From Cymodocea nodosa (Eukaryota > Streptophyta > Magnoliopsida > Alismatales > Cymodoceaceae): a stretch of DNA of 64,000 nucleotides. Under the pieces are notes generated by a model. That model was given only the letters and a program-made list of their open reading frames with translations, had not been told where the DNA came from and made no database searches. The position numbers were made by a program, and so were the translations under genes. Positions 6,989 through 44,483 of this stretch are shown here, piece by piece (within the stretch, counting starts at the first letter, position 1; each line of letters opens with the position of its first letter). The stretch lies in the NCBI GenBank assembly GCA_036874045.1, contig CM072347.1, positions 9,860,501 through 9,924,500 on the forward strand, written 5' to 3'.

Positions 6989-7026
6989 CCTTCCCCCCAT
7001 ACTTAAATTTGACATTGTCCTCAATG
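6989..7026 (-). promoter_or_regulatory. Internal purine tract plus CATTGAGGACAATG motif (A)
   Basis: In element sense CATTGAGGACAATG is followed by ATGGGGGGAAGG. Spacing and wording match B 3683-3720 and D 20639-20676. Confidence 0.55.
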
Positions 7027-11210: not shown

Positions 11211-11236
11211 TCAAGAGTATCTTAAAGACCTATCAG

Positions 11237-12382: not shown

Positions 12383-12470
12383 AATTATCTCCTTTGAAGA
12401 TGCACAACCAAAACACTTAAAAGGCTCAAGTCTAATCTAAAAAATTAAAACCTAGATTATACCGTGCCAA

Positions 12471-12489
12471 ATCCCCGGCAACGGCATCA
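12471..12489 (-). other. Primer-binding site of element A (tRNA-Asp type)
   Basis: The minus strand reads TGATGCCGTTGCCGGGGAT, close to TGGCGCCGTTGCCGGGGA, the complement of the 3' end of plant tRNA-Asp. It lies seven bases inside the 5' LTR at 12496. Confidence 0.88.
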
Positions 12490-12495
12490 AAAACT

Positions 12496-17506: not shown

Positions 17507-18021
17507 GCAAATAAGTTCTAAATCAGATAAAAAGAAAATAAAGAATCAACGACTAAGTTAATCTTTACCAGCCTTTGTTTTTAATTTTTCTAACTCTTCA
17601 AGTGATTCACTATTAGTCAGATCTGCACAAAGTAGCAACCAAGTGAGTAACCTTAATCCATTTTAAATAAAAGAATGACTACACAATGAAAGAATAAATA
17701 ATAATTAAATGAAGAAAATTAAAGAATAATGCAATATAAATACAAGATTACTTATACAACACTTTCCCAATTCATTCTAGATTAACTAATGAATCTACTT
17801 TCAAATTGAAACAGCATGCTAGCCTGACTTTGAAAAATCATAACTTTTTGCATACAACTCCAAATTAAGCATACAAATACTCTACAGAAACATCTTAACC
17901 TGAACTTTACAGGAATAGCAGAATTTAATTTTCCAGTTACAAGTTTGCATTTCAAAATAATTACAAATACTATACACTTAAACTTTCGTGTAGAAGGTAT
18001 GTCCTAGCACTGTTACAAAAC
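17507..18021. other. Unassigned AT-rich stretch, possibly leader/LTR of the zinc-knuckle element
   Basis: No gene is seen. The base composition and word use resemble Athila-type LTR R/U5 sequence, but no TG/CA terminus, PBS or partner copy could be identified. It ends where the truncated 3' LTR of element D begins. Confidence 0.3.
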
Positions 18022-23625: not shown

Positions 23626-24150
23626 TGTTGAGTATTTTTGTTTTGATGATGTGTGCTGAATGAATATAATCATATTTGCTCAATTACTATTGCTTGTGAA
23701 AAGACATTAAAATCATCAATTAATACAGAAAAAGCTTACTGATATAAATACTTGTCTGTATTGGATCTGAAGTTAATAACTAGTTGTTTTGTTGCATTAA
23801 TTTCTCATTTAGCTAAACGTTAAGTTAACGTGTGTTTTTATTGAAAAGCATGATATGTTTTAATGTTATATCTTCTATATCATGAACAGTGCACGTTTAG
23901 ACAACTCGTTAAGTTAGAGTTTTGTTTGTATAGAGGTCACGTGAGAACTCGTTAAGTTAGAGGCTTAAAGGTTAAAATAGGTCACGTTATAACTCGTTAA
24001 GTTAGTGAGTAAAAGAAGAGACGAACTCGTTAAGTTAGTGTTATACACGTGGTGAAATTATAAGTTACGAATGTTGTATTGTATCACGTGAGGTGCACAT
24101 GTTTAACTCGTTAACTTAACATAACTAAACGCGTTGAGTTGCTATAATGA

Positions 24151-24208
24151 ACACTAAGGCAACGCGTTAGGTTAGCGTTATAAACTTAAGTTGTTATTTT
24201 TGCACGTG
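24151..24208 (+). promoter_or_regulatory. 58-nt U3 block shared exactly with gypsy element D
   Basis: The block runs from ACACTAAGGCAACGCG to TTTTTGCACGTG and includes a G-box. Its reverse complement occurs without mismatch at 42159-42216 in the D 5' LTR. Because D is on the minus strand, the block has the same sense in both elements. Weaker similarity extends about 50 bp upstream. See findings. Confidence 0.85.
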
Positions 24209-24246
24209 GTAAAATTCTTATTATAAAAACATTTTTTTATTACTGA

Positions 24247-24375
24247 TTCGTTGAGTAATCATAACACAACGGAGATGGTTCGTTGAGTTATCATAACACA
24301 ATGGAGATGGTTCGTTGAGATAGCACAACACCACAGACATAGTTCGTTGAGTTAGCTACAGTACTTTTCATGTGA
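24247..24375 (+). repeat. Four tandem 32-bp repeats in C1 LTR U3
   Basis: Units start TTCGTTGAG at 24247, 24279, 24311 and 24343. The same array is at about 31582-31710 in the 3' LTR, while the C2 and C3 LTRs have about two units. Confidence 0.8.
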
Positions 24376-24671
24376 AATGGCACATGAGGAACTCGTTAAG
24401 TTAGAAACGTTAAGTTATATTTAAACTTGTGTTACTCGTTTAGTTAACATTAAAGTAACGACTTCTTATTACACTGATGAAAAACTTTTGGACAAGAAAG
24501 TTTATTTTGCAGGAAATTTTTCAGAGATCCAGGACTAATGATTAAAGAAAATTTGAAATATAAACGTGGGTTAGAACATGTGTGTTTCGATGAAGGAAAA
24601 AGAAAAGACGTGGAGAAGTGGAAAACTGGTGGTGGTTAAACATGAAGGATATGCATGAAATGAAGATACAG

Positions 24672-24680
24672 TATAAAAGG
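24672..24680 (+). promoter_or_regulatory. TATA box of C1 5' LTR promoter
   Basis: TATAAAAGG inside the 5' LTR, followed by an A-rich leader with AAGAAGAAGAAG repeats. The 3' LTR counterpart is 32007-32015, at the exact LTR offset of 7335. Confidence 0.7.
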
Positions 24681-25240
24681 CATAGAATTCTCGTTGATCA
24701 ATTTATCCTTGCACACAAAATGAAAAATCTTTTCAAAGATCAAACCATCCCTGCACACCAAAAGAAAAATCTTCTTCAGGGATCAAAAACATCTTCTCAG
24801 GGAAAATCTCTCAAGTGGAAGAAAGTTCAGTGAAGCAAAAAAAGATAAGATTTTCGTCACTGAAGATTTGAAGTATCAAAAGAAAGCAAATTCGGTGAAG
24901 CATGAAAAGACAAGATATTCGTCATTGAAGAATTGCTAAAGAAGAAAAAGAAGAAGAAGAAAGATCTCAAATAGGGAGAAAAGTTTTAAATTCCGCAAAT
25001 TAGTTTTCTCTGTTTGTAGTTATGAAATTGTTTAGATGATACATGGTATCGAAATATAATTGCATCTACAATTTATGAGGAGAATTGAATTGTATATTGT
25101 AATTGAAACCTTGAATAAAAATGATTTTATGAAAACAATGTCTCGACTTGTTTTTGAGTTTTAAAGTTTCAAATATATTTCAGAAAATATTAAAGATATA
25201 CAATTCACCCCCCTCTTGTGTAGCCATACAATCCTACAAG

Positions 25241-25252
25241 TGGTATCAGAGC
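25241..25252 (+). other. Primer-binding site of C1 (tRNA-iMet)
   Basis: TGGTATCAGAGC, two bases after the 5' LTR end, is complementary to the 3' end of plant initiator tRNA-Met. Confidence 0.93.
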
Positions 25253-25438
25253 TTTGTTAATAATCTTTAATATAAAATCAATACCAACTTATTTAATATC
25301 ATTGTTTATTCTACCTTCCTTGTTTTTAAACAGAAATTAATATCTGAGCATACGTTTAACTCTACTGATTTAAGGCTCAAGTTGTTTTAAAGTTTTTAGA
25401 CTGTTTAAAATCAAATAGGTTGAAAAATCTAAGGTAAA

Positions 25439-26550
25439 ATGGCTACTGGAAATGGTAATTTTTCTTTATATGAAGGCCAAAATCTTAATCGTCCTCCTTT
25501 ATTTGATGGAATACATTTTGAATATTGGAAATATAGGATGACTGTTTTTGTTCAAAGTATAGATCATAAGTTTTGGTTCATGATTTTTAAACCATATACT
25601 CTATTAACTACTCCTTATAATAATTGGACAATTACTGAAAAAGAAAATGAAACTCTAAATGCTAAGGGCTTAAATATTTTATTTTGTGCATTGAGTTATG
25701 AACAGTTCAGTAAAGTGTCGGCATATAAATCTGCTTATAAGGTGTGGCATGCATTAGAAGTTTCACATGAAGGTACTTCTCAAGTTAAAGAGACAAAAAT
25801 AAACATGTTGATTCATAAGTATGAACTCTTTAAGATGCATGGAGACGAAAATATTTCTGAGATGTTTTCCAGATTTCTTGATATCATACTCTTTAAAATG
25901 TTTAGGAAAGAATTTTGAACAGAAGGATTTGGTGAGGAAAATTCTCAAATCCCTAAGTTCTAAATGGTCTCAGAAAGTAACATCAATTGAGGAATCACGA
26001 GATTTAAATGTTTATTCTATGAATGAACTTATAGGAAATTTAACAGCCTATGAAGTTCAATTAAATGAATCACTAAGTCACAACAAACTAAAAATGAAGA
26101 AAGAAATAGCCTTCGAAATTAATTCAGATTCTGATATATCTACTGATTCTTAAGAGGATTTGATTTTGCTGACTAGGAAATTCAAGAAAGCATGGAAAGC
26201 TAGGAAACAGCAAAGGAACAAAAATGATATACCCTCAACGTCAAAATCATTGAATGAGAAGAATTCTTCATCCAGAAAGTATGTATGTTACAACTGTAAG
26301 AAACCTGGACATCTTTCTCTAGATTATCCTATGAGGAAAAATGAAAAGCAAAGTAGGACAAATCAGAAGAAGACGGCTCAGAAAACTCAGAAAAAGTTTT
26401 ACAAGAAAAAGGCTTTGAAGGTCACTTGGGATGACACGTCTGAAGAGTCTGAATCTGAGGAATCAGCATCAAAATCTTCACATTCAGAAAGAGAACAAGA
26501 GTTAGAAGACGTTGCTCATGTGTACTTCATGGCAGATGAGTCTGAGGAGG
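25439..26550 (+). pseudogene. C1 Gag (copia type, UBN2-like capsid plus zinc knuckle)
   Basis: The start ATGGCTACTGGAAATG is 187 bp after the PBS. The N-terminus has the copia Gag signature PPLFDGIHFEYWKYRMTVFV and the central helices KETKINMLIHKYELFKMH and LVRKILKSLSSKWSQKV. Near 26284 lies a zinc knuckle (CYNCKKPGHLSLDY) whose final Cys is Tyr. A 2-bp deletion near 25887 shifts the frame, and a TAA lies at 26152-26154. The gene passes without interruption into protease at 26551 through MADESEEE, the site where C2 and C3 hold the 1161-nt segment. Confidence 0.85.
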
Positions 26551-28140
26551 AAATAACATCAAAATGGATCTTGGACAGTGGAGTGTCAAGTCACATGACC
26601 AGACAAAAAAGTCTATTACAAAATTTTACAAATACCATGAAAGGAAGTGTAACATTTGGAAACAAAAGCAAAGATAAAATCATAGGTATGGGCAATGTTC
26701 AAATAACTCCTACTTGTGTTATTTTGAATGTACTATATGTAGAAAACCTAGGATTTAAATTTGCTGAGTGTCATAAAACTAACTGAAAATGGATATTATG
26801 TAGTGTTTGAAGATAATGTATGCAAAATAATTGATAAAAATACAGATGAAATTAAGTTTATTGCTAAAAGAAAAGGTTCTGTATGTATTTTATCTTTACC
26901 TTCTAGTGCAGTTGATTTAAATTCATGTTTTGCTAGCTGAAACTAGTGATGCATATCTATGGCATAGAAGGATTGGGCATATAAATATGAGACTGTTACA
27001 TAAACTATCTAGAAAACATTTAGTGAGAGGTTTACCAAAGATTAAATACTCAAAGAACTTTATGTGTGATGCATGTGAGTGAGGAAAACTTCACAAAAAC
27101 TCTTTTAAATCCAAAACTGATATTTCAAGCAAGAGAGTCTTAGAACTTATACATATGGATCTATTTGGACCAACAAGAATCATGAGTCTTGGTGGTAAAC
27201 GGTATGTACTTGTTTTAGTAGATGACTTCTCTAGATACACTTGGGTATATTTTCTAGTATCTAAGATAGAAGTTTTTGAAAAATTTAAAATGTTTTACAA
27301 TTTTGTTCAAAATGAGCAAAGTGTCTCTATTCAAAAACTTAGGAGTGATCATGGAACTGAATTTGATAATGATCAAATGGATAACTATTGTAATGAGCAT
27401 GGCATTGATCACAGATTTTCTTTTCCAAGAGCACCGTGTCAAAATGGTGTTGTTGAGAGAAAGAATAGATCACTTCAAGAAATGGCCAGAACTATGTTGA
27501 ATGAACATAAGTTACCTCAAAATCTTTGGGCTGAAGCAGTAAATACAACTTGTTATGTTATTAACAGAAGTCATTTAAGACCTCATGTTAATAAAACTCC
27601 TTTTGAAATTATGTTTAATAGGGTTCCAAAAATTTCCTATATGAAACCATTTGGCTGCAAGTGTTTTATTCTTAATACTAAGGATAAAAGGGATAAATTT
27701 CAAGCCAAATCGGATGAAGGAATTTTTGTAGGTTAATCTACTAGAAGTAAAGCCTATAGAGTATATAACAAGACTTCTAGGACTATTGAAGAAACCCTCC
27801 ATATAAGCTTCATTGAAAATTCTCTTAGAGAATCTCAATCTAAAGTTGATAATGATGATATGATCAATTTTCCAAATGAGTTAGAGATCAATAGAGAGAT
27901 TGATGATTTATCTGAGAAAATCAAAAATATGAACTTAAATGATCAAACTAATGATGAAAATGATGGACTTTCAGATGTTGATGAGAATATTGAGGAAAAT
28001 CAGAGAAATTGGCGTTATTCTTCATCACATCCCATTACTCAAGTCATTGGTAATATTAATGAGGGAGTTAAAACTAGAGCTTCAGTAAATTTAAATAGTA
28101 TGTGTATGTTTGTTTCTATGGTGGAACCAAGGAATATATA
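26551..28140 (+). pseudogene. C1 protease and integrase
   Basis: The aspartic protease active site is KWILDSGVSSHM at about 26560. A 1-bp insertion near 26760 and another near 26930 shift the frame. The GAG-pre-integrase HHCC region follows (LWHRRIGHIN then CDACE), with a TGA at 27081. The integrase core (27155-27736) has its acidic residues in MDLFGPT, RSDHGTEF and GVVERKNRS. A TAA interrupts IFVG at 27734. The acidic linker before RT ends at a TAA at 28139. Confidence 0.85.
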
Positions 28141-28716
28141 AGAAGCATTATCTGATGAAAATTGGATAGTGGCAATGCAAGAAGAACTAAATCAATTCAT
28201 CAGAAATGATGTATGGGAATTAGTCTCTCCACCAGAAAATCAGTCCATAATAGGTACAAAGTGGATCTTTAGAAACAAAACTAACGAAACTGGTCAAATT
28301 ATAAGGAATAAAGCTAGATTAGTTGCACAAGGGTATACATAGGAAGAAGGATTTGATTATGATGAAACATTTGCTCCTGTGGCTAGGTTAGAAAGTATTA
28401 GAATATTATTGGCCTATGCTTGTTATATGGATTTTAAATTATATCAAATGGATGTAAAGAGTGCATTTCTAAATGGTTTAATTAATGAAGAAGTCTATGT
28501 AAAACAACCACCTGGATTTGAAGATATTAAAAATCCTGACTTTGTGTATAAATTGAAGAAAGCCTTATATGGTTTGAAGCAAGCACCTAGATCATGGTAT
28601 GAAAGATTGTCTACTTTTTTAATAGAAAAGGCTTTATCATGGGAAAAGTGGATCATACTCTATTTATTAAGAGAGATGGTAAAGATCAGATTGTTGTTCA
28701 AATATACGTGGATGAA
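28141..28716 (+). pseudogene. C1 reverse transcriptase, truncated fragment
   Basis: Copia RT motifs are present: QEELNQFIRNDVWELV, GTKWIFRNK, FAPVARLESIRILLAYA, YQMDVKSAFLNGLINEEVYV and KALYGLKQAPRSWYERL. A TAG at 28340 and a 1-bp shift near 28630 disable it. The sequence stops matching C3 just after the codons for IYVD, at 28710-28735, so the second catalytic Asp, the RT thumb and all of RNase H are absent. The copy could not reverse transcribe without help. Confidence 0.85.
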
Positions 28717-30460
28717 AACTTTTATGGAGCAATTTGAAAAGAAAACAGCAATACTTGAAATGGAGAAACAAAAATGTTATAGAAGAAGGAAAGTCAGAAA
28801 AATTATGTCTAAGGAAACAAAGTCTATTGAAAAAGGAAAATCAGATGAAAATTTATTTTCAAAGGACAATGTATGTCTAGACATTGTACCTTATTGTGCA
28901 TCTGATAAACTCATCAGTTCTAAACATAGTGAAACTGATGAAGATAATGAGACTTTATTTTCCCTTGCTAGAAAGCTTGAGAAGAAATCCAAGTCAAATA
29001 TAAGCTCAAGTTTTTCTATTAATACAAGTCCTAATGATGCAGAAATTGACAAATCAGAGCATCAGGCACCTGATTTTAAACAAGTTATTGCAGATATAAT
29101 TGACAATGTTGAGGCAGTAACTAGTTCAAAGGCTGAATTGTTTGGAGTAGCAGATATTGAAATTGTTAAGACTCTAGAAGAGCTAAAAGTTAACCAGCCT
29201 TCTACGTAATCTATAGAAGTAGAGTCTGAGAATTCACAACATAAATCAATGGAAATATCTGTTGAACAAAATGAACAATTACAGACAGATACACCGGCTA
29301 TAGAATTTGTAGAAAAATTGTACTCTGAACATTCTATAAAGACTGAACAGATGAATGTTGAGCATATTGACAATGTTCCTAACACTGTTAAAGCTGAAGA
29401 ATCAAGCTTACCTGAGCAGCTTCATGATATTATTTTGGAAGAGGATCAACATGACATTCATTTTGAAGAAGAGGTTCCTAAAGATGAATTAAACTCTGAA
29501 TCACGGCTTCAGGTATCACCTTCTTTGTGTACAATGTTAAACATTCAAGGTAATACAATTCATTTTAGATCTGAAGAAGCATTACAGAAATACAATAATC
29601 TGATTACATGTTAGATTCTGCATGCTCGTCCAATAAAATTCAGAAATTTGATGGACATAAGAGATCTGTTTGAGTTTCAAGACCTCATTAAATTCTTGCC
29701 AGTAGGAATGAAATAGAAGCAATACACAAAGCTTATTGCAGCTTTTTATAGCAATCTCGTCAACAATGGAAATTTTCTGAAAACTCAAATAAATGAACAG
29801 GAGTTTATATTGTCTCCTGAATTAATTTTTGAAGTTTTAGGATTAAAGAATGAAGGTGTTGTTGTTACCAACAGATTTGACCTAATAAGACAACTGGAAT
29901 GGAACATTCAGTCTTTATCAAAAATTCCAGATGTATATTCTGAAATGAGATTAATGGAAAATCTGAATGCAGAAGCAAGGTTTATTGCAAATATATTGCA
30001 TGCAAATTTATTTCAGAGAGTTGGACACAATATGGAAGTTAGCAAAAGTTGTTTATATGCAACTTATAGCTTGCTGAATAGAATTCAAATCAATTGGTTT
30101 GATGTTTTCACTTCTCAACTACAGCATATGAGTTCAAAGTTATTTTATGGTGATGCTGTATGTAGACTCATTGCAAGCTAATTGAATTTATCCGATTGGC
30201 CCTCTGAAACTAAAGGCATGAGAGCATTTAGTGTCGAAGATTTGCAAAAATTCCACGCCATGCATAAACCTCAACGACAACAACAACAACAACCTGATAC
30301 AGATCATATACAACAACAAAGTTATTCAGTTCAAGCAGAAGAGCAAACCCAGCTACCTCCTGACTTAGATGTAGTGCTTAACGACATCAGAAATGATATT
30401 AAGCATCTAGGAGATAAAATATGTAATGCTATAAGTGATATACTTAGGACGGGTCGCTAA
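28717..30460 (+). pseudogene. C1 accessory ORF, homologous to the accessory ORF of gypsy element D
   Basis: This is a long coding stretch broken by stops (near 29207, 29612, 29714 and 30179). The N-terminal part is acidic and Ser/Glu-rich. The C-terminal domain has DIRDLFEFQDLIKFL, AFYSNLVNNG, ILSPELIFEVLGLKNEG, ARFIANILHANLFQRVGHN, RIQINWFDVF and KLFYGD, followed by a Gln-rich tail and a final helix (VVLNDIRNDIKHLGDKI). Element D 33676-35905 has the same order of motifs. The domain resembles the plant family often annotated as putative plant transposon protein; function unknown. Its place after pol is where Sireviruses may carry env-like ORFs. Confidence 0.7.
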
Positions 30461-30946
30461 CTATTTTTGTTTGTTTCTGAATACAAAATGTAATGTTTGT
30501 ATTACTTGTTTAATTCATTGAACAATACATTTTTCTATAAATGTCTTCAATTATTATTCTTGTTTACAGAAAGAGTTGTTGTAATTATATCTCTTATATA
30601 TGTATATATATTCTTTGTAATTATTTTTTTGATTAATGACAAAAAGGGGGAGAAATATTATAAAAAGATGATTATGATCTTAATTGCATATATATATTAT
30701 AAAAGGAGATTCTATTTAAATGGTTATTGTAATCTGACAGATGATAATTAGAAAACTGATACTTATATAATTATTGACATTTGAGAGTTTTAGTTCTGAG
30801 AGGTAAAATTTACACAAACAATAGAAATAAGCTTAAGTGAACTTAAGTCAACAAACAAGTTTGTTGAATTAAAAGTTAACCCAACGATGGTGCTTTGTTG
30901 AGTTATACATATTTCATAATTGATTTAATATGGTTTTGTCATCATC
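30461..30946 (+). other. C1 3' noncoding region with an extra polypurine tract
   Basis: No gene is supported. A first purine tract, TGACAAAAAGGGGGAGAAA, lies at 30637-30655, about 300 bp before the PPT that touches the LTR. AGTTA-type palindromes occur near 30830-30905. Confidence 0.55.
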
Positions 30947-30960
30947 AAAAAGGGGGAGAT
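30947..30960 (+). other. Polypurine tract of C1
   Basis: AAAAAGGGGGAGAT ends immediately before the 3' LTR TGTTGAGTA. Confidence 0.9.
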
Positions 30961-32573
30961 TGTTGAGTATTTTTGTTCTGATGATGTGTGCTGAATGAAA
31001 ATAATCATATTTGCTCAATTACTATTGCTTGTGAAAAGAAATTAAAATCATCAATTAATACAGAAAAAACTTACTGATATAAATACTTGTCTGTATTGAA
31101 TCTGAAGTTAATAACTAGTTGTTTCATTGCATTAATTTCTCATTTACCTAAACATTAAGTTAACGTGTGTTTTTATTGAAAAGCATGATATGTTTTAATG
31201 TTATATATTCTGTATCATGAATAGTGCACGTTTAGACAACTCGTTAAGTTAGAGTTTTGTTTGTATAGAGGTCACATGAGAACTCGTTAAGTTAGAGGCT
31301 TAAAGGTTAAAATAGGTCACGTGATAACTCGTTAAGTTAGTGAGTAAAAGAAGAGACGAACTCGTTAAGTTAATGTTATACACGTGGTGAAATTATAAGT
31401 TACGAATGTTGTATTGTATCATGTGAGGTGCACATGTTTAACTCGTTAAGTTAACATAACTAAACGTGTTGAGTTGCTATATTGAACACTAAGGCAACGT
31501 ATTAGGTTAGCGTTATAAACTTAAGTTGTTATTTTTGCACGTGGTAAAATTCTTATTATAGAAACATTTTTTTATTATTGGTTTGTTGAGTTATCATAAC
31601 ACAACGGAGATGGTTCGTTGAGTTATCATAACACAACGGAGATGGTTCGTTAAGATAACATAACACCACGGACATAGTTTGTTGAGTTAGCTACAGTACT
31701 TGTCACGTGAAATGGCACATGAGGAACTCGTTAAGTTAGAAACGTTAAGTTATATTTATACTTGTGTTACTTGTTTAGTTAACATTAAAGTAATGACTTC
31801 TTATTACATTGATGAAAAACTTTTGGACGAGAAAGTTTATTTTGCAGGAAATTTTTCAGAGATCCAGGACTGATGATTAAAGAAAATTCGAAATATAAAC
31901 GTGGGTTAGAACGTGTGTGTTTCGATCAAGGAAAAAGAAAAGATGTGGAGAAGTGGAAAACTGGTGGTGGTAAAACATGAAGGATATGCATGGAATGAAG
32001 ATACAGTATAAAAGGCATAGAATTCTCATTGATCAATTTATCCTTGCACACAAAACGAAAAATCTTTTCAAGGATCAAACCATCCCTACACACCAAAAGA
32101 AAAATCTTTTTCAAAGATCAAAAACATCTTCTCGGGGAAAATCTCTCAAGTGGAAGAAAGTTCAGTGAAGCATAAAAAGGTAAGATTTTTGTCACTGAAG
32201 ATTTGAAGTATCAGAAGAAAGCAAATTCGGTGAAGCATGAAAAGACAAGATATTCATCACTGAAGAATTGCTGAAGAAGAAAAAGAAGAAGAAGAAAGAT
32301 CTCAAACAAGGAAAAAAGTTTTAAATTCCGCAAATTAGTTTTCTCTATTTGTAGTTATGAAATTGTTTAGATGATACATGGTATCGATATATAATTGCAT
32401 CTACAATTTCTGAGGAGAATTGAATTGTATATTGTAATTGAAACCTTGAATAAAAATGATTTTATGAAAACAATGTCTCGACTTGTTTTTGAGTTCTAAA
32501 GTTTCAAATATATTTCAGAAAATATTAAAGATACACAATTCACCCCCCTTTTGTGTAGCCATACGATCCTACA
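30961..32573 (+). repeat. 3' LTR of C1
   Basis: 1613 bp, the same length as the 5' LTR, with scattered substitutions (several in the first 200 bp). It is followed by TSD ACGTT at 32574-32578. The TATA box is at 32007-32015. Confidence 0.93.
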
Positions 32574-32578
32574 ACGTT
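32574..32578. repeat. Target-site duplication of C1, right copy (ACGTT)
   Basis: Perfect copy of 23621-23625. Confidence 0.93.
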
Positions 32579-33675
32579 CTCTTTTAAAGAAAGGTTAGCT
32601 ACACCCTAAAGAATTTCGTTAAAGTTCAGTTCAGAAAATTTTTTAGTACTCCTTTGCAATGGAAATTCCTAGATAGGTGTTCTTACTAATCGCTTAGTGC
32701 TTAGAGAACGAGTCTATGTGCTCATAAATAAATAACAGAAGATTAATTACATACCAGTCTGAAGCTTTCCATTCTATAAATATTTATTGTCAGATGAAGG
32801 TTGAATCAACTGCTTCTCCTTCTAGTTCCTCCAACGCTTTCTCCTTTCTCTTAAAAGTGTTGGTAACTCGTAAATAACATTATGTTTCATATATATACTG
32901 TGCATCCATAAAGTGAATAAATCTCGTTGCAAGAACGTGTCTTGCAATGTGTATCGTGGTTCCTGTTCTAATGGGTACGTGTACCACTACTAATTTCAAA
33001 TTTTGGTAACCGCTAAACCGACGAAGTTTCGTTTGTGGTTAAAAAGAATAACCATTCTTCTTAATCCACGAAATAACCTTGTTAAGTTACAAATTACTCA
33101 ATAGAATACAGTCGGTTACTATTGCTAACTCCACGGACTAACTTCGTTGAGTTACAGATAACTCAACGGAGTGACCTTATATTATATTACTGACCTTGTG
33201 GAGTTACAGTTAACTCAACGGAATTACTTCGTTGAGTTAACACTTGGCAACTTCTAAGTTTCACTCTCGTAAGTTTTCTATTCTGTTTTTTTTTTTCTTT
33301 GTTTTTCATTCTGCTAACTGTAATAAAGTTAAATCTATGTCATTAATGCCTCATTTTGATTAAAATACATTTAAACCTGAACATTATATAAAGATTTAAA
33401 TTGCAGGTCATTTTATGTTATGCAGAATTTACATTTTACCTTATAACATGCAGAAATTTTTAAGCAGTTATCTTGTTATTCAGAAAATTGTAAATATGTC
33501 ACATATTCATAAAGTTCCACAAATTACATAATATTCAATAAATTCCATTCATTTCACATTCAAATACGTATGAAAATTGCATCTGAAAAATTATATTCAT
33601 TAATATGAATCAATTACATTACAAGTACATCATACAATTTCATACAATTTTACACAAGTATACGAACAATACAAT
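32579..33675 (-). other. Element D accessory ORF-capsid intergenic region and start of capsid gene
   Basis: 32579-32605 is the displaced beginning of the capsid frame, open back to a TAG at 32606-32608. The remainder has no gene. AGTTA/TAACT palindromes are concentrated at 33121-33245. The same repeat wording occurs at window positions 1-56. Confidence 0.55.
33121..33245. repeat. AGTTA/TAACT inverted-repeat cluster between accessory ORF and capsid gene
   Basis: Units include TAACTCCACGGAC, TTCGTTGAGTTA, GATAACTCAACGGAG, TGTGGAGTTA and GTTAACTCAACGGAA, in alternating orientation. Confidence 0.8.
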
Positions 33676-35905
33676 TTAATCTCTATGCCTAAGTTCATCT
33701 ACTTCCTTCTGGAGTTTTTCTAATTGCTGCTCTAATTGATTTATCCTCTCTACTACTCCTGCAATTTCTCCAAAAGGTACAGCTAATTCTGCAGCTACAA
33801 AATTTCTGTATTCTTTCATTGAAATGGTTCTAGATCTTATCTTTTTTGATGTCCATTTAGTGAAATCAATACTATCCACCATCAGCAGTGGAATCAAATC
33901 TCCATAAAATAATTTCTTCTTCACTGTTTTCAGCTTGGAGATAAAAACTGCAGACCAATTTATTTGGATCTTATTTACAACTGCATACGTGGCCCATTTG
34001 ACAAATTGATTTAATTCTATGTCATGGCCCTATCGTTGATAGACATTCTTAATCAGAATGTTAGCTACCATGTGTGCTTTACCATTTAAATGCTTCAATC
34101 TGTTTAATAATGGCACACCAGGATTGATAGCTAAACAATCCTTAATTTGCTACTCAGTTCATTCAACTGTAGTTGTATCTACCAAAATTTTTGTTCCTTC
34201 ATTCTTTAAACCAAATATGTTGTGGAGAAGCTCTGGTGTTATCTGTACATCAGCTTCCTCCATGTTTGAAATTAATTCTCCTTCTCCTTCTCTTAAATTT
34301 GCATAGAAACAGGGCACTAAATTCTCATATACTGCATGCCCTCTATCTTGAGATATAAATTGCAGTAGACCTTGAAATTCAAATAGATCTTTGATTTCTT
34401 GCATTCCATCCCAATTTACTGGTCTACTGTAAATAATATCGTAACCCCTTATTTCTTGGTATTTGGTATAAGCTTCCTAACTACAAAAATGTACTACATT
34501 CAAAATTGTTGTTTCAGTCGGGTCAAGAAGGTAACTTTGTTGCTCCCGAGGGGTTTGCTCTTGCTCTTCCTCTAGCATAGGCTGCATTTGGACATTCTCT
34601 TCAGATTCCTGAATTTTTGCTTTTGCTTCTATCTGTGGTGGTGAGCCAGCAGAACTCTTCACTTTGTCTTGAATTCTTTCCATAATTTGCTGAAGAGTTT
34701 CTTGCTCTTCAATGGAATCTGTGAAATTATTTTTGTCCAAATGGCTTCTTTCAGCCTCTTCATTTTCTACTCTTTCTTCTTCCTCCTGACTACCAATCTG
34801 TTCTATTACTGTTTTTCCTGATTCTATAACAGATTGGGATGGAGTCACGGGCAATTCAGTTTCTACCCTTATTTCTGTTTCTTCTTGTACAGACTGCAAA
34901 CTAATTTCAGCCTAATTTTTTTCTTTTCTTTGCTCCTCCTACTCCTCCTCAGATTCGGATAGCAGGTTAATAAAAATCTACCCTATAGGCCTTGTAAAAA
35001 TTGGTACTTCAGATTTAATTTCTTCATAATCAGGCACTTTTTCTTTTTCTTTCTTTTTTCTGATTAGTTGTGCTTGTTCTTCCTCTTCATCTTTTGAAAT
35101 TAAATCTACAAAAATAGGCTCTGTAGGCTTTCGAACCACAGGTATTGGCTCTTCTTGTTTAATTCTTCCAATAATTGCTCGTCTCGAAGGACCAACTTTA
35201 GCTTCTTTTGCAGCATATCTAACAGCAGTTTTGGCAGTAGCTTCTTGATGCTGTTCCACTTTAATTTTATATTTGGCTTTCAACTTTTTCTGCAGCCCTC
35301 TATTTATACAGTGCATCAAACACCAGGTGTGCTTTAGCCACTGCCAAATCTTCTAATTCTCCTTGGTTTTTTCCAACTTGAACCAGTTCTGCAAATTCTC
35401 TTATTTCTTCTTCAGTCGAAGGCCCCATCATTTCTGCTCGTGCCAATGGCTTAAATGGTGGAACTGAAGGTCCAGACTACTGCTCCTCAAGAACAGGTTT
35501 TTCAGCAGTTGGTTCCTCCCGTTCTTCAGTTGCCTCTTCATTTGCTTTCCTTTCTTGCTCCCAGATCACCCATTTAGCTTGTCTACAGATTCGTCTTTTG
35601 AACCAGAGTCGAGACTTACGCTGGATTAATTCTAGGGCAACTTCATTACTTGGCCTTATTTGTCTTTCCTTGCTTACAGTTATTTCTGTTGCTATTCTGA
35701 TTCGTGTTTCCATTATTTGAGGTATTTGTATATCCATATCTACTAAATCTCCTCTAAACTTGAAAAGTTCTGATTCTACCTTCTGTAGCTCTTTCTCTCT
35801 TGTCGTATTTCTGATCTTTTACCGCGTGTGCCACTCTTCTGATTCCTTCAGAAATTCTGATCTATCAACAACATCTTCCCAGAATTCAAGCGTCATCTTC
35901 CTCAT
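33676..35905 (-). pseudogene. Accessory ORF of element D (plant transposon-protein-like)
   Basis: It starts near ATG 35905 (MRKMTLEFWEDVVDRSEFL) and runs on the element's coding strand. The first part is charged and helical (about 35477-35905). A long Glu/Gln-rich acidic middle follows (34477-35319). The C-terminal domain has EIKDLFEFQGLLQFI, CFYANLREGEGE, ITPELLHNIFGLKNEG, KIQINWSAVF and KLFYGDLIPLL, and ends in a coiled coil (INQLEQQLEKLQKEVDELR). Stops near 35820, 35478, 34975, 34475 and 34158 and a shift near 35300 disable it. The same domain is carried by copia element C1. Function unknown. Confidence 0.72.
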
Positions 35906-36059
35906 CGTGGAGTTACACAACAGCACGGAATCGCTCTGATTTCTACTGTTCTAGATTCTAAATTATTTGTCGAATAATGCCCTCAAAACCCTAGGTTTTA
36001 GTTTAAATAAGCACTAAGTTTAGGCGAGTAATCAGGTCATTTCCCGAACCAACTATTAC

Positions 36060-36190
36060 TATTTTATCTGCGGTCTTAGCTACAGTACTCCGTTGTGTTA
36101 CAAGTAACTCAACGGAATAAGCTCGTTGACTAACTCAAGACTTAACGGAGTATGCTCGTTGAGTTAAGCGTAACTCAATGGACTCCCCGT
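36060..36190. repeat. AGTTA/TAACT inverted-repeat cluster between integrase and accessory ORF
   Basis: CTCCGTTGTGTTAC, AGTAACTCAACGGAA, GCTCGTTGAGTTAAG and GTAACTCAATGGAC alternate over about 110 bp. Confidence 0.75.
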
Positions 36191-36239
36191 ACAAGCAATT
36201 ATAATAATAAAAATATTACAGAGAATAGTTTTTCTGTTT

Positions 36240-36656
36240 TTTTACAGGTTTATTCGATACTATGCTTCGGTCAGACCTAAATATTTTTTTATTTTTTATT
36301 TTTCTTTCGGTTGAATCGATACTATCTTTCGGTAAAACCAAATTTTTTTAATGTTCCGGTCATACCGATGCTACGCTTCAATCAAACCAAAATATTTTTT
36401 ATTTTTTTACTTTTCTTTCGGTTGAACCAATACTATGTTTCAGTAAAACCAATATTTTTTTCTGAAAATGAATATACAATTTTTTTCCGGTTTAACCGAT
36501 ACTATGCTTCGAACATACCAAAATATTTTTTATTTTTTTACTTTTCTTTTGGTTGAACCGAAACTATGTTTCGGTAAAACTAAATTTTTTTTTTATGTTC
36601 CGGTCATACCGATGCTACGCTTCGGTCAGACCTAAATATTTTTTAATTTTCCGGTA
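36240..36656. repeat. Seven-unit inverted-repeat array (CGGTT...AACCGATACTATG...TTCGGT)
   Basis: Units centred near 36255, 36315, 36365, 36425, 36495, 36555 and 36610 share the pattern CGGTTnAACCGATACTATG then CTTCGGTnnnACC, separated by T/A-rich runs. Two subtypes alternate (GGTTGAACCGA and GGTCATACCGA). The array joins directly to the truncated integrase at about 36657. A diverged version follows the integrase at 46700-47040. Confidence 0.82.
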
Positions 36657-38403
36657 AACTTCTATTACAGAAATGAGTTCCTCTATCACTGATAATAGCT
36701 TTAGGTATTCCAAATCTAGCAAATATATTTGTTCTTATAAATTGTATTACCACTTTGTTATCATTAGTTTTTGTAGGAATAGCTTCTATCCATTTAGATA
36801 CATAATCCACCCCCAACAGTATGTAATTAAATTGATTAGACATAGGAAATGGACCCATAAAATCTATTCCCCACACATCAAAGATTTCAACCTCAATAAT
36901 AGGATTAAGAGGCATCATATTCCTCTTTGATATTCTTCCTATTTGTTGACATCTTAAACAACTTAAGCAATATTTATGAGCATCTTTGAATAGTGTTGGC
37001 CAATAAAACCCACATTGCAGAATTTTTGCAACAGTTTTCCCTGAACCAAAATGTCCTCCACAAGCTTGGTCATGACAGAAAGACAATATGCTCGAATATT
37101 CAGTTTCTGGAGCACACCTCCTTAAAACTAGATCAGGACATTTCTTAAATAAGTAAGGGTCTTCCCAATAGTAATATTTTACTCTTGAAAAAAACAATTT
37201 CTTATCTTGTCTATTCCAATCCTTAGGTGTTAAACCAGTAACTAAGTAATTAACTATGTCTACATACCAAGGCATTGTGTTGATGGTCATTAATTGTTCA
37301 TTAGGAAAACTATCCTTAATTTCAATATTTGATTTTTCTATTTGTAATCTTGATAAATGATCTGCTACTACATTCTCACAACCTTTTTTATCTTTAATTT
37401 CTAGATCAAATTCTTGCAATAATAATATCCATCGGATCAATCTAGGTTTAGTTTCTTTTTTCTTTATTAGATGTTTTAGAGCTGAATGATCCATGTATAC
37501 TATTACTTTAGCTCCAATCAAATATGATCTAAACTTTTCTAAAGCAAACACAACAACTAATAATTCTTTTTCAGTAGTTGTGTAATTAACTTGAGCATCA
37601 TTTAAGGTTTTGCTTGCATAATGAATCACTCTAGGAGATTTTTCTATTTTCTGTCCTAACACTGCTCCTACAGCAAAATCAGAAGCATCGCACATTAATT
37701 CAAATGGATGGTTCCAATTAGGTGCTTGAATTATAGGAGTTGAAATTAAGCTAGTCTTAAGTCTGAAAAATGCTTCCTTGCAATTTTTATCAAAGTTAAA
37801 TGGAACATCTTTTAATAGATTAGTTAAAGGTCTAGCTATCTTGCTAAAGTCTTTAATAAATCTTCTATAAAAACCAGCATGTCCTAGAAATGATCTAATA
37901 TCTTTTACTAATTTAGGTTCTGGTAGATTAGAAATTACTTCTATTTTAGCTTTATCTACTTCCAACCCTTTTTTAGAAACAACATGCCCTAAGACTATTC
38001 CTTGTTTAACCATGAAGTGACATTTTTCCCAATTTAAAACCAGATTTTTTTCCACACAGTGTTTTAATATTTGGTCTAAATTGCTTAAACACACTTCATA
38101 TGAGTTGCCATATACAGTAAAATCATCCATAAATATTTCTAAAAATTCATCAGTCATTCTAGTAAATATGCCCTGCACATACCTTTGAAAGGTAGCTGGT
38201 GCATTGCATAATCCGAATGGCATTCTTTTAAAAGCATAAGTTCCATTAGGACAGGTGAAAGTTGTTTTCTCTTGATCCTCTAATGCTACTGGAATTTGAT
38301 TATACCCTGAATACCCGTCTAGGATACAAAAATATTCCTGCCCTGCTAATCTTTCCAGCATTTGATCTATAAAAGGTAAGGGAAAATTATCTTTCCTAGT
38401 CAT
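36657..38403 (-). pseudogene. Element D reverse transcriptase, RNase H and truncated integrase
   Basis: A single open frame of about 580 codons. [30 protein letters not shown] and catalytic FMDDFTVYG. RNase [34 protein letters not shown] and MDHSALKHL. Integrase: [37 protein letters not shown] and [12 protein letters not shown]. The integrase ends at 36657, after its second acidic residue, by fusion to the inverted-repeat array. The catalytic Glu and C-terminal domain are lost. RT and RNase H look catalytically intact but are separated from protease by stops near 38450 and 38508. Confidence 0.88.
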
Positions 38404-38505
38404 AACATTCAGCTTTCTATAGTCTATACATACTCTCCAACCAGATTAAATTCTAGTAGGTATCAAGTCTTGACTTTCATTCCTAATAACTGTTAATCCT
38501 GATTT

Positions 38506-39585
38506 CTAGGGAACTACATGGATTGGACTAACCCACGAGCTATCAGAAATCAGATATATTATATCATTATCTAACCATTTAACTATTTCCTTCCTGACTA
38601 CTTTCTTAAGGTTTGGATTTAATCTCCTCTCAGGAATTCTAACAGGTTTAGCATTCTCTTCTAAATATATGTGGTGACAGCATAAAGTTGAACTTAACCC
38701 TTTTATATCAGTCATAGTCCATCCTATTGCTTCTTTATAACTTTTTACTACATCTTTTAATTTAGCTATTTGATCCTCTTTCAAATCTGAAGCAATAATG
38801 ATTGGAAAGGTCCATTTATCTTCCAGAAATATATAGGTTAATTCAAGAGGTAAAGGTTTTAATTCTAAATGTTGTCCATCAAAAGCTAGAGCTCCTAATT
38901 GAACATCATCATTTTTTAAATTAATTTCTTCCTGATCTCCTTCTATATTTATGCTTTCACTTTCTTCTAAAGTTTCAGAATTGATTTGCCTATTTAATTC
39001 TTCTTGAATCACATCATCTAACATATCTCCTTCATCCTCTAAAAAGTCTATGGTATGTAAGGACATTTCTAACTCCTCAAACCTTTCTGGTTTGAAAATA
39101 TTTAATTGAGTATCCTCATTACCATATGCTAACTTCATTACTCCAGTTTTACAATTTATAACAGCCCCTGATGTTGCTAAAAATGGTCTTCCCAAAATTA
39201 AAGATGTATCACTATTTTTATGCTTAATTTGTTGGGAATCCAAAATTACAATATCAATAGGATATATAAAATTCTTGATTTTAATTAAGACATCCTCTAT
39301 TTTTCCTCTAGGGTATCTTATACTTCTATCAGCTAATTGAATAACCGTACTAGTAGGAGTTAAGCCTTCTAATCCTAAGGATGCAAATATATCACTTGGC
39401 ATAACATTTATACCTGCACCTAAGTCTATTAAGGTTCTTTCTAGAATGGTATTTCCTATGGTGCATGATATAACAGGGATTCCAGGATCAGATAACTTTT
39501 TAGGAATTTGTGGCAGAAATAGGTAACTACTTTGCTCAGCTAAAAAGACCTTTCTAAGAACTTTTCGCTCTCTTTTCTTAGTACA
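38506..39585 (-). pseudogene. Element D protease and RT N-terminal region
   Basis: The frame opens after a TAG near 39588 (within FLKDxCTKKR). The protease active site is TLIDLGAGINVMP. It is followed by LILGRPFLATSGAVINCKTG, a long acidic linker, and the RT entry NDIIYLISDSSWVSPIHVVP ending at a TAG at 38506-38508. The linker contains AIGWTMTDIKGLS, as in element A. Confidence 0.85.
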
Positions 39586-40115
39586 CTAATCCTTCAGAAA
39601 TTTAGCACAAGGTGGCATATTCTGCAATAGATCTAACAAAGGAATGTTAACTTGTACTTTTTCAAAAATTTCTCTGATTTTTTCTTGTTTTTTAGGAATT
39701 GTTTATTGTAATCTTTTAGGATAGGGTGCTAAAGATTTTGATTTCAAAGACTCTTTTTCTTTTAGTTGATTTGTTTAATTATTTTTAGCTTCAATTGTAG
39801 ATTCAGATTGTTCTTCAGTGATTTCTAGATTTTCAGCTATTACATTTTCATTATCATTTTGATTTTTACTCTTGTCCGCCTTCATATCATTTTCATTTTG
39901 AGTTCTTGGTGGTATATCAATTCCAGATCTTAATGTTATACATCTTCCAGATTTTCGTTACTTTCATGATGTTTTTGTATATCATTTTCGTGATTATGAT
40001 CTTCAATTGTTTTTAGTTTTAAAGTGCATTCTTTAAATTCTCTTACATTAGTGTTTTCTGTTTGTTGTATATTTTGCAAGTTGTGCAGGTTTATAACATT
40101 ATAATTTTCATTGTC
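39586..40115 (-). pseudogene. Element D Gag-protease linker, degraded
   Basis: Coding remnants in more than one frame include the ITLRSG-type landmark near 39935, APYPKRLQ near 39725 and VQVNIPLLDLLQNMP near 39640. Several stops are present, so Gag and protease are no longer joined. Confidence 0.6.
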
Positions 40116-40610
40116 CTATTGTAAAACTTGTATTTTCATTGCATTTTTATCTAATGCTTTTAATTTTGTTTCCAAATCATCTAATTTCATTGCATTCAAT
40201 TTTTGATCAATTTTCTTTATGGCTTTTTCAGTTTCGTAAATTATATCCTGTTTAGGTTCTGAATATGCCTCCTTATAGTTTAATTGGTTGACTTCTTGTT
40301 GTTGACACACAAAGTATTCCAGTTTGTCCAGATTTTGCTCTATACTATGCTCCAATCTGTCATAGCTATCCCAAACTTCAGTGTCTCTCATCATATTGCA
40401 CATTCTATACTGACCATCAGTTGGGTAAACTATAGGATTCTCATACTCGACTCTATTATATTGAGGATAATTCATTTGTTGTTCATGGGATCTATCAATC
40501 TGTAAATGTCTCAATTTCAAACAATCAGAAATGTCGTGTCCTTCAGAATTGCAGAATTCACATATGCTAATTAAAAGTTTCAGAAATCTTTGAGCATAAG
40601 CATATGCCAT
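40116..40610 (-). pseudogene. Element D nucleocapsid-like Gag segment (one zinc knuckle)
   Basis: The ATG at 40610 lies about 85 bp after the PBS. The frame could be read further upstream, but that would run through the PBS into the LTR, so the inner ATG is preferred. One CX2CX4HX4C knuckle (CEFCNSEGHDISDC) is near residue 17, followed by a polar helical region (DDLETKLKALDKNAMKIQ). No capsid domain is present; capsid is 3' of pol in this element. Confidence 0.75.
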
Positions 40611-40695
40611 ATTCTCAATTACAAAAGAAAACACACAACTTTGACTATTAAAATGAAACAGCTCTAACAGTTGCTTATATCTATTCAATTCAATT

Positions 40696-40712
40696 CCCCG
40701 ACAACGGCGCCA
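40696..40712 (-). other. Primer-binding site of element D (tRNA-Asp type)
   Basis: Minus strand TGGCGCCGTTGTCGGGG differs at one base from the tRNA-Asp complement TGGCGCCGTTGCCGGGG. It lies seven bases from the LTR end at 40720. Confidence 0.9.
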
Positions 40713-41916
40713 TAAAACTTGTTCGTGCTTTCCCAACACTACACTAGAAAAACTTGGATTTGTTACTTCTATTTTTTACTTAGTTAATTTATCTTTATGC
40801 CTATTCTTTCTTTTAGAAGTAAACAAACAACATTTAATACAATTTAGATATTCATTCCAATTTGTACTTTAACTACAAGTGCACAGTGTCTATTGTATCA
40901 GTGTGCAAGTACAGGTCGATCCCACAGGGAATTGCTGACGAATTTAAGAAATGTTTGATTGTGAACAATTCAAATTTATATTCAATAAGCACTCCATTGA
41001 GTTACAGTTAACTCAACGGACTAAGTTCGTTGAGTTATGGATAACTCAATGGACTATCCTCGTGGACTTAAGTTAACTCCATGAGTCTGTCTCTTCTTTA
41101 TAATACTGCTATTTACAGAGGAATTCGGCCAACCATTGGGCGATTCCACAGATTGTAAATAACATCAATTAAACTTTTTAATGCTAGTTAACATTGGATT
41201 TATCATTATGAAATACTAACATTCAAATGATTCAAACAGTAACCATTAAAATCTTTAAGTTGTTTTGTACGAACCAATTTCAGTAAACTATAAAATTAAA
41301 ACTAACATAAAATAATCATAAAATTGATACAGATAGCATTAATCACGATACAACACAAACAATACAACACTCAAATACAACATACAAATAAAGATAAATT
41401 GTTTTTGGTATTTTTGTTTTGATGTGAACATGGAAATGGGCGAAAGGTGAAATGTAAAGTAATTTCACTTGACAGTAAATACTTCTAACACTATTTGCAA
41501 CGTGATTACACCATTGAAAATTGAACCACTTACAATTCTGTCTCCTCTCCTTATAGAAGCGCGAGTCCAGAATTGCAAGATGATCTCCTCTTCAGCATAC
41601 AGACATCAACCCGAAGCCAAGGCTAAAAGCTTTACGATCTCCTGAAATATCAGTGGGCACTTGGTGAAAATGTCTTCCCTTCCCGTGACGCGATCACTCC
41701 TCACAGTGGTTGTCAGGCACTGTGTTTGGCTCGGAATCAACCCGACATCAGGCAAGTATCCTCACAGACCACCGATGATTGGTGATTATGGTGGTTATAA
41801 CGATGGTTGGTGTGATACTTCGGAGAATCGCCGATACTGTCTGTAGAAAGCTCGGTGCTCCTCCTCTGTATACACTAACTGTCCATCGATCACACTCTTT
41901 CTTTTTTTCTTCTTTT

Positions 41917-41924
41917 CTTTTATA
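41917..41924 (-). promoter_or_regulatory. TATA box of element D 5' LTR promoter
   Basis: TATAAAAG on the minus strand followed in element sense by AAAAGAAGAAAAAAAG. Confidence 0.6.
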
Positions 41925-42158
41925 TTTCTTCAGTGGTAACTGCTTCTGCTTGAATGATCGGTTGGATTTCCTTCCTTCAAATCAACGGTGATGATTTCTT
42001 TCTCCCTACGCGATTGAATTCCTGCGTGATACGTTCGAACGTGGTTTTTCCTTCCAACTGTCTATTCCTACAACCGCTATAGTGGCATATTAGAAAATAT
42101 ATAGTTCGTGAAGTTACAGATAACTCAACGGACTTCCTTCGTTGATTTAACTACAAAA

Positions 42159-42216
42159 CACGTGCAAAAATAACAACTTAAGTTTATAACGCTAACCTAA
42201 CGCGTTGCCTTAGTGT
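42159..42216 (-). promoter_or_regulatory. 58-nt U3 block shared exactly with copia element C1
   Basis: Reverse complement of 24151-24208 without mismatch. In element D sense it lies upstream of the TATA box, as it does in C1. The D 3' LTR copy has lost 11 nt of it. Confidence 0.85.
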
Positions 42217-42583
42217 ATTTTCATGTAACTCAACGCGTGCAGTTATACTAACTTAACGAGTTATAACGTAAGTAAATCTACCAACTCTCAATACGTGTCT
42301 GCAGCAGTTTAAACATAAAATAACATTTCGGAGAGTTATAGGTATAACTATCTGATACTCAGATGCATTTTCGGATACTTAAGAATTTCACAGCCTGCAA
42401 TTTACCGATAGTTCATAAATTTACTAAATTAACATTAATTCCCCAAAATTAAGCAGATTCTTCAATTAAAGCATATAACAGTGCAATTATAACATAATGG
42501 CTTAATTCTCATATGATAAGCTAAATATTATGTAATTAACCATCATTTAACCGTTAATAATATGCACTTTTTCATTCTAAACA

Positions 42584-42714: not shown

Positions 42715-44483
42715 AATGATGGTGATTTCTTCTTCATTCCATGAGTGAATTCCTACATGATACGTGTAATCATGGTTTTCCTTCAACTGTCCTATTTCTG
42801 CAACTACTATAGTGGCATATTAGAAAATAGTTGGTCCGTGGAGTTATAGATAACTCAACGGACTTACTTCGTTGGTTTAACGATAAAACATGTGCAATAA
42901 AGAAATAATCTACTTGTTAGGGCAAGTATTACAAGTGTGGAGTATGCCACAAGAAATTCAGGTTCAATCGGAAACTTGTTAACAATAAGTATCTGGCAAT
43001 TTTATATTTTTGGTAGGTTGTAGACCTAAGTATCTGGAAATAAAGGTTCAGTTAGAGGCTTTGAGTTAACTATCCGAAAGTTAGAAGATTTCAGAGAGTT
43101 ACTGATTGTAACTATCCGAAATGACTTAAAGGACACTTAAGTGGACGTTCGGATAGTTATGAAGCTAAGTATCCGAAAGTCAGACACTTAAGTGGATCTT
43201 CAGATAGTTAAGAAGCCAAGTATCTAGAAAGCAATGACTTAAGTGGATCTTCGGATAGTTAGGTAGTAACTATCCGAAGTTCAAAAGTTTTCGGAGGGTT
43301 ATCGACAAAACCTTTCGAAATGCCTAAAAAGACACTTAGTGAGTTTTCAGATAGTTAAGATGTAACTATCCGAAAAACATGTAGTTTTTGGAGAGTTATC
43401 AGCAAAACCTTCCGAAAGGACAGAAAGAGAGAAGTAAGTGACTTTTCGGATAGTTAAGTTAGTAACTATCCGAAATACCGAATCTCTCTGGACAGTTAGC
43501 TTGGTACAGTTCCGCCCGTTCAAAAAGAATATTCTCTTCGGATAGTTAAGTCTGTAACTATTTGAAATGTTGCAGATTTCAGAAAGATAAGAAGATAAGG
43601 CTCCGAAATTAAGAGTCTCTTCTCTAAAGCATTGTTTCTCTACTATAATGGCTTGTATGTAATTAAAGGTTTATAAACCCTAAGTTGGGTAGTATATAAA
43701 CCTTTATGATGTTGTAAAACATTGTGGTTGATTGTGCTGAAGCTCATAAAGGAACCCTCAACTCTCCATGGACGTAGGCTGTTGCTGAACCACGTAAATC
43801 CTATTTCTTCTCTATATTATTTCTTCTCTTACTCTTCACTCCTAACTTCGGTGAGTTTAGAGCTAAGTGTTTCAGTATCGTGCCATAGAAGGTTAATTGA
43901 ACGATCCATTCCATCCATAACATTGCTAATATAACGTGTTACCTTAGTGTGTATTCATGTAACTCAACACGTACAATTATGCTAACTTAACAAGTTAAAC
44001 ATGTGCATCTCACGTGACATAATAAAGCATTTAAATTCAACACATGTATAAATCTAACTTAACAAGTTTAGATATTTCAGATACTTACGAACCTAATTAT
44101 CCAATGCCTAGATGCATTTCAGATAGTTAACAGATAACTTAACAAAAATCCACTTAAGTCATGCATTAAGGTTTCAACACGTGTACTCTAGAAAATAATA
44201 AAATATTCTTTAAGCAATTAAACATATCTGTCCAGTACATTCAATATAACTCTCCAAAATAACAGAAAATTCAGACACTTAGGAATTTTCCAGCCTACAA
44301 TTCACCGACAGTTCAGAAATGTACTAAATTAACGTTAATTCCTTGAAATTATGTAGATTCTTTCATTAAAGCATATAATAGTGCAATTATAACATAATGG
44401 CTTAATTCTTATATGATAAGCTAAATATTATGCAATTAACCATCATTTAACCCTTAATATTATGCACTTTTTCATTCTAAACA
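42715..44483 (-). repeat. D-family LTR, truncated, interrupted by a solo copia LTR
   Basis: The high-coordinate end is the LTR start TGTTTAGAATG (minus). The sequence follows 48590-49337 closely, apart from the insertion at 42915-43922. The lower end breaks near 42715, so R/U5 are missing. Confidence 0.75.
42915..43922 (+). mobile_element. Solo copia-type LTR (1008 bp) with CGGATAGTTA/TAACTATCCG array
   Basis: Termini are TGTTAGGGCA and CCATAACA. A TATATAAA box near 43690 gives the plus orientation. The 5-bp flanks, CTACT (42910-42914) and TTGCT (43923-43927), both approach CTGCT, the sequence of the uninterrupted homologue near 48775, so they are a decayed TSD. The part 43060-43570 carries six CGGATAGTTA/TAACTATCCG inverted pairs. 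No internal region remains, consistent with LTR-LTR recombination. Confidence 0.75.

Follow-up and report, generated by a model that had tools for sequence, protein, structure and literature searches.

A U3 module shared by Ty1/copia and Ty3/gypsy long terminal repeats of Cymodocea nodosa and its probable exchange between superfamilies

Described exchanges and the present locus

Swapping of long terminal repeats (LTRs) between related gypsy elements is said to have been described in soybean by Du et al. in 2010, and we set such exchange beside a putative exchange across superfamilies, namely a sequence module shared by the LTRs of a Ty1/copia family and a Ty3/gypsy family in a 64,000-nucleotide stretch of Cymodocea nodosa DNA (contig CM072347.1, positions 9,860,501 to 9,924,500, forward strand; hereafter the window). 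The sequence at this locus makes exchange of U3 (unique 3′) segments between the two superfamilies, in some form, very probable, and the reading that we prefer, with a probability of roughly 0.6, is that U3 segments passed from copia to gypsy elements by template switching during reverse transcription.

Several described systems come close to this one. In bursts of the copia element ONSEN, chimeric LTRs, one of them with its exchange in U3, are likewise ascribed to template switching, but the partners are members of one family, not of two superfamilies (PMC5668417). Heterologous co-packaging followed by switching, with target-site duplications (TSDs) as evidence, has also been proposed for template-switch complexes of the Triticeae, which are three-LTR insertions of related copia elements rather than U3 patches across superfamilies (PMC1950507). 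Pararetroviruses of rice relatives similarly show repeated, region-specific exchange of regulatory noncoding sequence in one host; there, however, the partners are autonomous and non-autonomous, and the authors favour homologous recombination of minichromosomes (PMC5491270). A U3 segment that differs or is exchanged beside a conserved pol is also known from the fission-yeast Tf1/Tf2 and Tosmo mosaics, an exchange that, unlike the present one, stays within Ty3/gypsy relatives (PMC10085805), and recombination of LTR regulatory variants is known from the rover recombinants of Drosophila, where reporters show that the expression niche is set in this way but the variants belong to one lineage (PMC12992720). 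Exchange in Cereba/Quinta took place within a family or among relatives (PMC11302176). In the Tnt1 superfamily U3 is likewise a separate, fast-changing module, for which the excerpts of the source name no donor from another superfamily (PMC1838419), and cross-element modular transfers have been proposed in the history of LTR elements too, for the ancient origin of pol and LTR rather than for recent U3 patches (PMC3601003). As far as the excerpts of these sources go, recent exchange between LTR elements has been described among relatives, and U3 patches across superfamilies would be a new aspect; the excerpts of two further papers (PMC4379980 and PMC12786077) hold nothing on copia–gypsy exchange, and no report of U3 exchange between copia and gypsy was found in the open-access literature searched, which is not proof of absence.

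The shared module in copia and gypsy LTRs

The copia and gypsy hosts named in the original prediction, which was made from the letters of the window alone, are borne out by domain content and order. In the copia element C1 the integrase precedes the reverse transcriptase (rve 27083-27733, RVT_2 28343-29206), the LTRs have TG..CA ends and are 95.6% identical to each other, the insertion is flanked by a TSD, and the 5′ LTR is directly followed by TGGTATCAGAGC, which we take to be a primer site of the initiator-methionine (iMet) type. An open reading frame (ORF) of the copia element C3 (60936-63167) also has integrase before RVT_2, and the named relatives of the copia protein, mostly ~50-55% identical to it, belong to plants, Vitis, Citrus and Trifolium among them. 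Element D, inside which C1 lies nested, belongs to Ty3/gypsy by its domain order and by the sequence after its 5′ LTR (Table 1).

The predicted identity between the C1 and D LTRs holds at 58 of 58 bases, D being read as the reverse complement, and the block lies in sense within U3 of both hosts, upstream of a TATAAA-like site (C1 LTR position 1047, D LTR position 660), with CACGTG at its end. The weaker similarity reported upstream of the block is present as well; it forms the left 47 bp of an ungapped 105-bp module, with 12 differences between C1 and D against none in the block (12/47 versus 0/58; Fisher P=2.7e-5). When the C1 LTR was compared with the D LTR (its first 1264 bp), the longest common word measured 58 nt in sense and 17 nt in antisense orientation, and as the longest common word in 300 dinucleotide shuffles averaged 11.1 nt and reached at most 14 nt, the identity lies beyond chance; outside the module, comparison of the same two sequences by BLAST returned a single 23-nt word. 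The block had also been placed in C2 and C3, where it is present but, as in the 3′ LTR of C1, near-identical rather than identical. Likewise, the 11-nt loss assigned to the 3′ LTR of D exists, in a D-type copy that is itself truncated at its 3′ end.

The genome (374.6 Mb, 28 contigs) was searched with the module, the 40 best-scoring matches per search being considered and 30 loci taken from each, 60 in total. The block was exact in 28 of 32 D-type loci, 30 of which had been chosen with D's own sequence, block included, as the query, and in 3 of 26 copia loci, all of which carry the module since they had been chosen with it; both counts include the window's own copies (L031 and L001). These loci bear on a further explanation, a third repeat such as a miniature transposon, a satellite or a host promoter that was inserted independently into both LTR families, an explanation in favour of which nothing was found. 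Copia- or gypsy-type LTR sequence adjoined the module in 60 of the 60 best-scoring loci, none of which lay outside the LTRs of the two families (rare other contexts being possible beyond these), and the extent of the shared part, which keeps to the coordinates of the copia LTR, varies with the gypsy type (105 bp, ~154 bp or 490 bp at most), so that the third repeat in other genomic contexts that the original prediction had named as its refutation did not appear and we regard this explanation as very improbable.

Elements without the block, for which the original prediction had recommended a search, exist in the window: both J, which belongs to the same gypsy family, and the related element G lack it, the LTRs of G being free of both module and motif. 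J is 84% identical to D across the first 300 bp, and its U3 consists of native repeats up to TTATGCACGTGTTTTATAG, among which no copia segment was detected. In D, by comparison, a copia-like stretch lies between TTTACTTA[A/C]GTTATA and TGCACGTG, with gypsy sequence on either side. An older form of the module, at 72-79% identity, occurs in the gypsy LTRs E and F of the window, in L062, L082 and L084, and in the LTR flanking L016. Eight gypsy LTRs that span the module site were not picked by the module (five in the window, and L062, L082 and L084), a tally that omits L016 (nested copia), L064 (truncated LTR) and L022 (fragment). The older form occurs in five of the eight and a D-type copy with the 11-nt loss in one; D has the module at 88.6%, and J is without it. 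No module site was obtained for L081 and L083.

Scored against E and C1, the D module has 8 E-only and 2 C1-only sites in its left 47 bp and 0 and 11, respectively, in the block (left part versus block, Fisher P=2.2e-4). The D module thus reads as a mosaic in which an E-like left part adjoins a C1-like block, and the 58-nt block would be a recent copia patch over an older shared module. Two gypsy LTRs, L022 and L029, are closer to C1 on the left part also (4/47 differences, compared with 12/47 in D) and differ from it at 2/58 positions of the block.

Table 1. Features of the window that bear on the shared U3 module (LTR positions count from the start of the respective LTR)
Feature	Position	Strand	Details
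C1 5′ LTR (copia)	23626..25238	+	5-bp TSD ACGTT at 23621-23625 and 32574-32578
C1 LTR 142-631	23767..24256	+	U3 segment with homologue inside X-type gypsy LTRs
105-bp module in C1	24104..24208	+	LTR 479-583; 88.6% to 42263-42159
58-nt block in C1 5′ LTR	24151..24208	+	LTR 526-583
C1 3′ LTR	30961..32573	+	Module at 31439-31543
D 5′ LTR (gypsy)	40720..42583	-	1864 bp, then primer-site-like TGGCGCCGTTGTCGGGGA
105-bp module in D	42159..42263	-	LTR 321-425; E-like over the left 47 bp, copia-like over the right 58 bp; joint on the right TGCACGTG at 42166-42159
58-nt block in D 5′ LTR	42159..42216	-	Exact match to C1
D pol ORF	36646..38445	-	RVT_1, RNase H, integrase (gypsy order)
D-type LTR truncated at 3′ end	18017..19269	-	Module 18949-18856 with 11-nt loss
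J, 5′ part of gypsy LTR of D family, native U3	16107..~16877	+	Without copia module
Module in copia C2	52606..52711	+	
Module in copia C3	57339..57443	+	
Older module in gypsy LTR E (49335-47894)	48778..48922	-	76.0% to C1 LTR 398-551
Older module in gypsy LTR fragment F (44483-43924)	43925..44068	-	75.8% to C1 LTR 399-551
G, related gypsy element	4238..14123	-	1630-bp LTRs; pol 72% identical to D over ~2.1 kb

Larger copia segments in X-type gypsy LTRs

Two loci, L008 and L019, surfaced in the copia-module search yet sit in gypsy LTRs. Their copia parts, which correspond to C1 LTR 142-292, 358-412 and 480-631 in L008 and to 143-292 and 358-640 in L019, are 93-95% identical to C1, and their native parts resemble J. 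In this form, here called X-type, up to 490 bp of copia U3 occupies a U3 site other than that of the D-type. A query spanning the left joint of L008 matched at all 40 scored places (of 2648 candidates) with 90-100% identity, L008 itself included, over query positions 1-166 in 39 cases and 1-164 in one. The matches included nine same-strand pairs spaced 12-19 kb apart, eight of which were analysed as LTR pairs (16 LTRs).

All 16 paired LTRs run from gypsy LTR position 1 to 214 (to 210 in one) and then continue in copia sequence from C1 142 or 143, the main copia segments being 88-96% identical to C1, and 15 of the 16 resume gypsy sequence afterwards, L073 and L074 by way of a D-type module. The exception is L066, the 3′ LTR of the L065/L066 pair, in which the copia segment is followed by the complete end of a copia LTR and then by internal DNA of copia type, probably as a result of ectopic recombination at the shared sequence. 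D-type gypsy 3′ internal DNA precedes the 3′ LTR in eight of eight pairs, and the 5′ LTRs L067 and L077 sit within copia LTR sequence. TSDs were found in five of the eight pairs (CTCAT, CCAAC, ATCCC and CACAT exact, CCGTA/CCGTT at 4/5 positions), the other three not being assessable. L019, the X element for which pol was compared, is followed by D-type pol (94.4% over 2930 bp); other DNA interrupts its 3′ LTR after 211 bp. By their gypsy LTR ends and internal DNA and their 5-bp TSDs, the X elements belong to Ty3/gypsy.

The X-type and D-type LTRs thus combine gypsy flanks with a copia tract, and the tract-free state is seen in J (compared with D, L008, L019 and L065-L080), which is the structure of an inter-element U3 recombinant. 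This recombinant has replicated as an element, with the segment in 16 of 16 LTRs of the eight pairs and TSDs in five of them. A nested copia insertion was rejected as the source of the X segment, which ends inside U3 and, in 15 of the 16 LTRs, has gypsy U3 to its left and right; the nested or fused cases, L016 and L066, look different. L076 holds copia 142-631 without the deletions present in other X LTRs, which suggests that the X insert stems from a single full acquisition followed by deletions between CTCGTTAAGTTAG repeats. Jukes–Cantor distances within the X LTR pairs (0.046-0.055 over 684-2411 aligned bases) and the divergence of the C1 pair indicate that the two families were active over a similar period.

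The diversity of the block bears on the proposal, also part of the original prediction, that strong functional constraint preserved the identity, be it through shared ancestry or through convergence, without recent exchange. The sequence is rich in motifs and includes CACGTG, and in D-type LTRs the block has a diversity of 0.007 compared with 0.066 upstream and 0.059 downstream (33 LTRs, 30 of them picked with a block-containing query), a contrast for which recency, constraint and sample selection are indistinguishable. The contrast seen in this block-selected sample does not extend to X-type LTRs, which were not block-selected (L067 omitted): there a diversity of 0.056 in the block exceeds the 0.037 of gypsy LTR 1-214, and 2 of the 15 LTRs have the block unchanged. 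For 29 copia LTRs the block gave 0.056, next to 0.076 over 200 bp on its upstream side. As the block is unprotected in both groups, constraint was rejected as a sole cause. Furthermore, the sharp edge of the identity noted above, the hundreds of base pairs of colinear copia U3 in X LTRs and the lack of the block in J and G all argue against such an explanation, which we consider very improbable.

Direction, number and route of the transfers

Direction was assessed on a midpoint-rooted tree of 46 U3 segments (29 copia and 17 gypsy; L067 omitted because of an extra insertion). A single starred branch contains all 17 gypsy rows and 20 of the 29 copia rows, the other 9 copia rows lying outside it. 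The nesting of the X inserts within copia suggests that the X transfer ran from copia to gypsy, and for the D-type patch the same direction would follow from the native state in J. A single X clade is not rejected (p 0.18, L066 lying outside the tested clade), and several separate X origins were discarded on this ground. Since neither the site nor the extent nor the joints of the D-type agree with those of the X-type, at least two recent events are indicated; transfers of copia U3 into gypsy U3 would number at least two and probably three or more, the old event of E and F included, for which either direction is possible. As to the reverse transfer, no gypsy pieces adjoin the module in the 26 module-selected copia loci.

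On the reading that we prefer, one Ty3/gypsy family would have received, in sense and within its U3, U3 segments from a single Ty1/copia family: in an old event (E and F) and, more recently, as the D-type patch, to which the 58-nt identity is due, and as an X-type insert that reaches 490 bp, short native gypsy stretches being replaced at the two recent sites. Copia and gypsy RNAs would have come together in one reverse-transcribing particle, in which the enzyme copying U3 would jump to the copia RNA at a short common motif and return at another, and the resulting gypsy element with a patched U3 would be copied into both LTRs. The chimeric LTRs were competent, whole gypsy elements having replicated with them and inserted anew; afterwards, gypsy variants would have recombined with one another and lost sequence between CTCGTTAAGTTAG repeats. 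The segment may also bring candidate enhancer-like motifs, CGTTRAGTTA and CACGTG.

The four joints carry 6-14 nt of homology: CTGAAGT (7 nt) and 12/14 matches around TTCGKTGAGTWATC at the X joints, and GTTATA (6 nt, if the donor was the copia repeat near C1 LTR 359) and 13/14 matches around TGCACGTG at the D joints. Such homologies are compatible with template switching and with DNA repair alike. Sense orientation, position in U3, the joint homologies and the precedent in related plant elements plausibly favour template switching. Of the recent exchange of a promoter module, for example by template switching, that had been proposed at the outset, exchange itself stands, and more than once, on the evidence of mosaics, a native state and replicated chimeras; template switching is plausible and the mechanism that we favour.

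Several observations weigh against this reading, most of them in favour of exchange from copia to gypsy at the DNA level, by gene conversion or microhomology-mediated repair, with the patched LTR then transcribed and spread. The joint homologies of 6-14 nt fit repair as well; copia insertions inside these gypsy elements (C1 in D, and L016) put DNA templates side by side; and in L066, where a gypsy 3′ LTR passes by way of the shared segment into a copia LTR and on into copia internal DNA, fusion took place at the DNA level at that very sequence. Against a DNA-level route, the segments lie in sense and within U3 in 16 X LTRs and in D, and ordinary homologous conversion would be less likely to leave patches with two heterologous ends in short motifs, neither point being decisive; we hold this route possible, if less probable than template switching. 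Two further reservations concern template switching from copia to gypsy more broadly: the low D-type block diversity could reflect constraint, in a block-selected sample, and the root of the tree is a midpoint and no copia relative lacking the segment came to light, so that the inferred direction depends on J, the tree and the segment extent.

If copia and gypsy RNAs do recombine, regulatory modules would not be confined to one lineage, and a promoter that works, or that escapes control, could reach a transposon of unrelated descent; LTRs could then mislead classification and dating, and superfamily-crossing co-packaging would become open to test in this genome, which holds dozens of chimeric copies. 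More tentatively still, the copia and gypsy elements of one genome might share a promoter gene pool through repeated heterologous template switching, in which an acquired segment would give a gypsy element the expression niche of copia, their RNAs would meet and further exchange would be favoured.

Outside the module, a CGTTGAGTTAT-type motif is present in the D LTR (40992-41084) and in copia U3 (24251-24306) at ~74-90% identity over 38-93 bp and is perhaps an older shared element. The D LTR motif was also matched to the right of the module in the copia loci L004, L013, L018, L025 and L030, where the matches are short and weak (38-93 bp, 74-90%). L055 and the L022 fragment each contain one minus-strand copia U3 match; L022, in which a gypsy LTR end and ~500 bp of 3′ internal DNA are directly followed by the next LTR, is a strongly shortened derivative. 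The 3′ internal part of D contains an ORF with an F-box domain (PF00646, 5e-9; window 21094-22263, minus strand), for which a protein search at 1e-10 gave no relative and which may be a host gene that the gypsy family carries along. At the DNA level it is found again in L043, L063 and L064 (92-97% identity) and, in short pieces, in L033 and L073 (88-90%).

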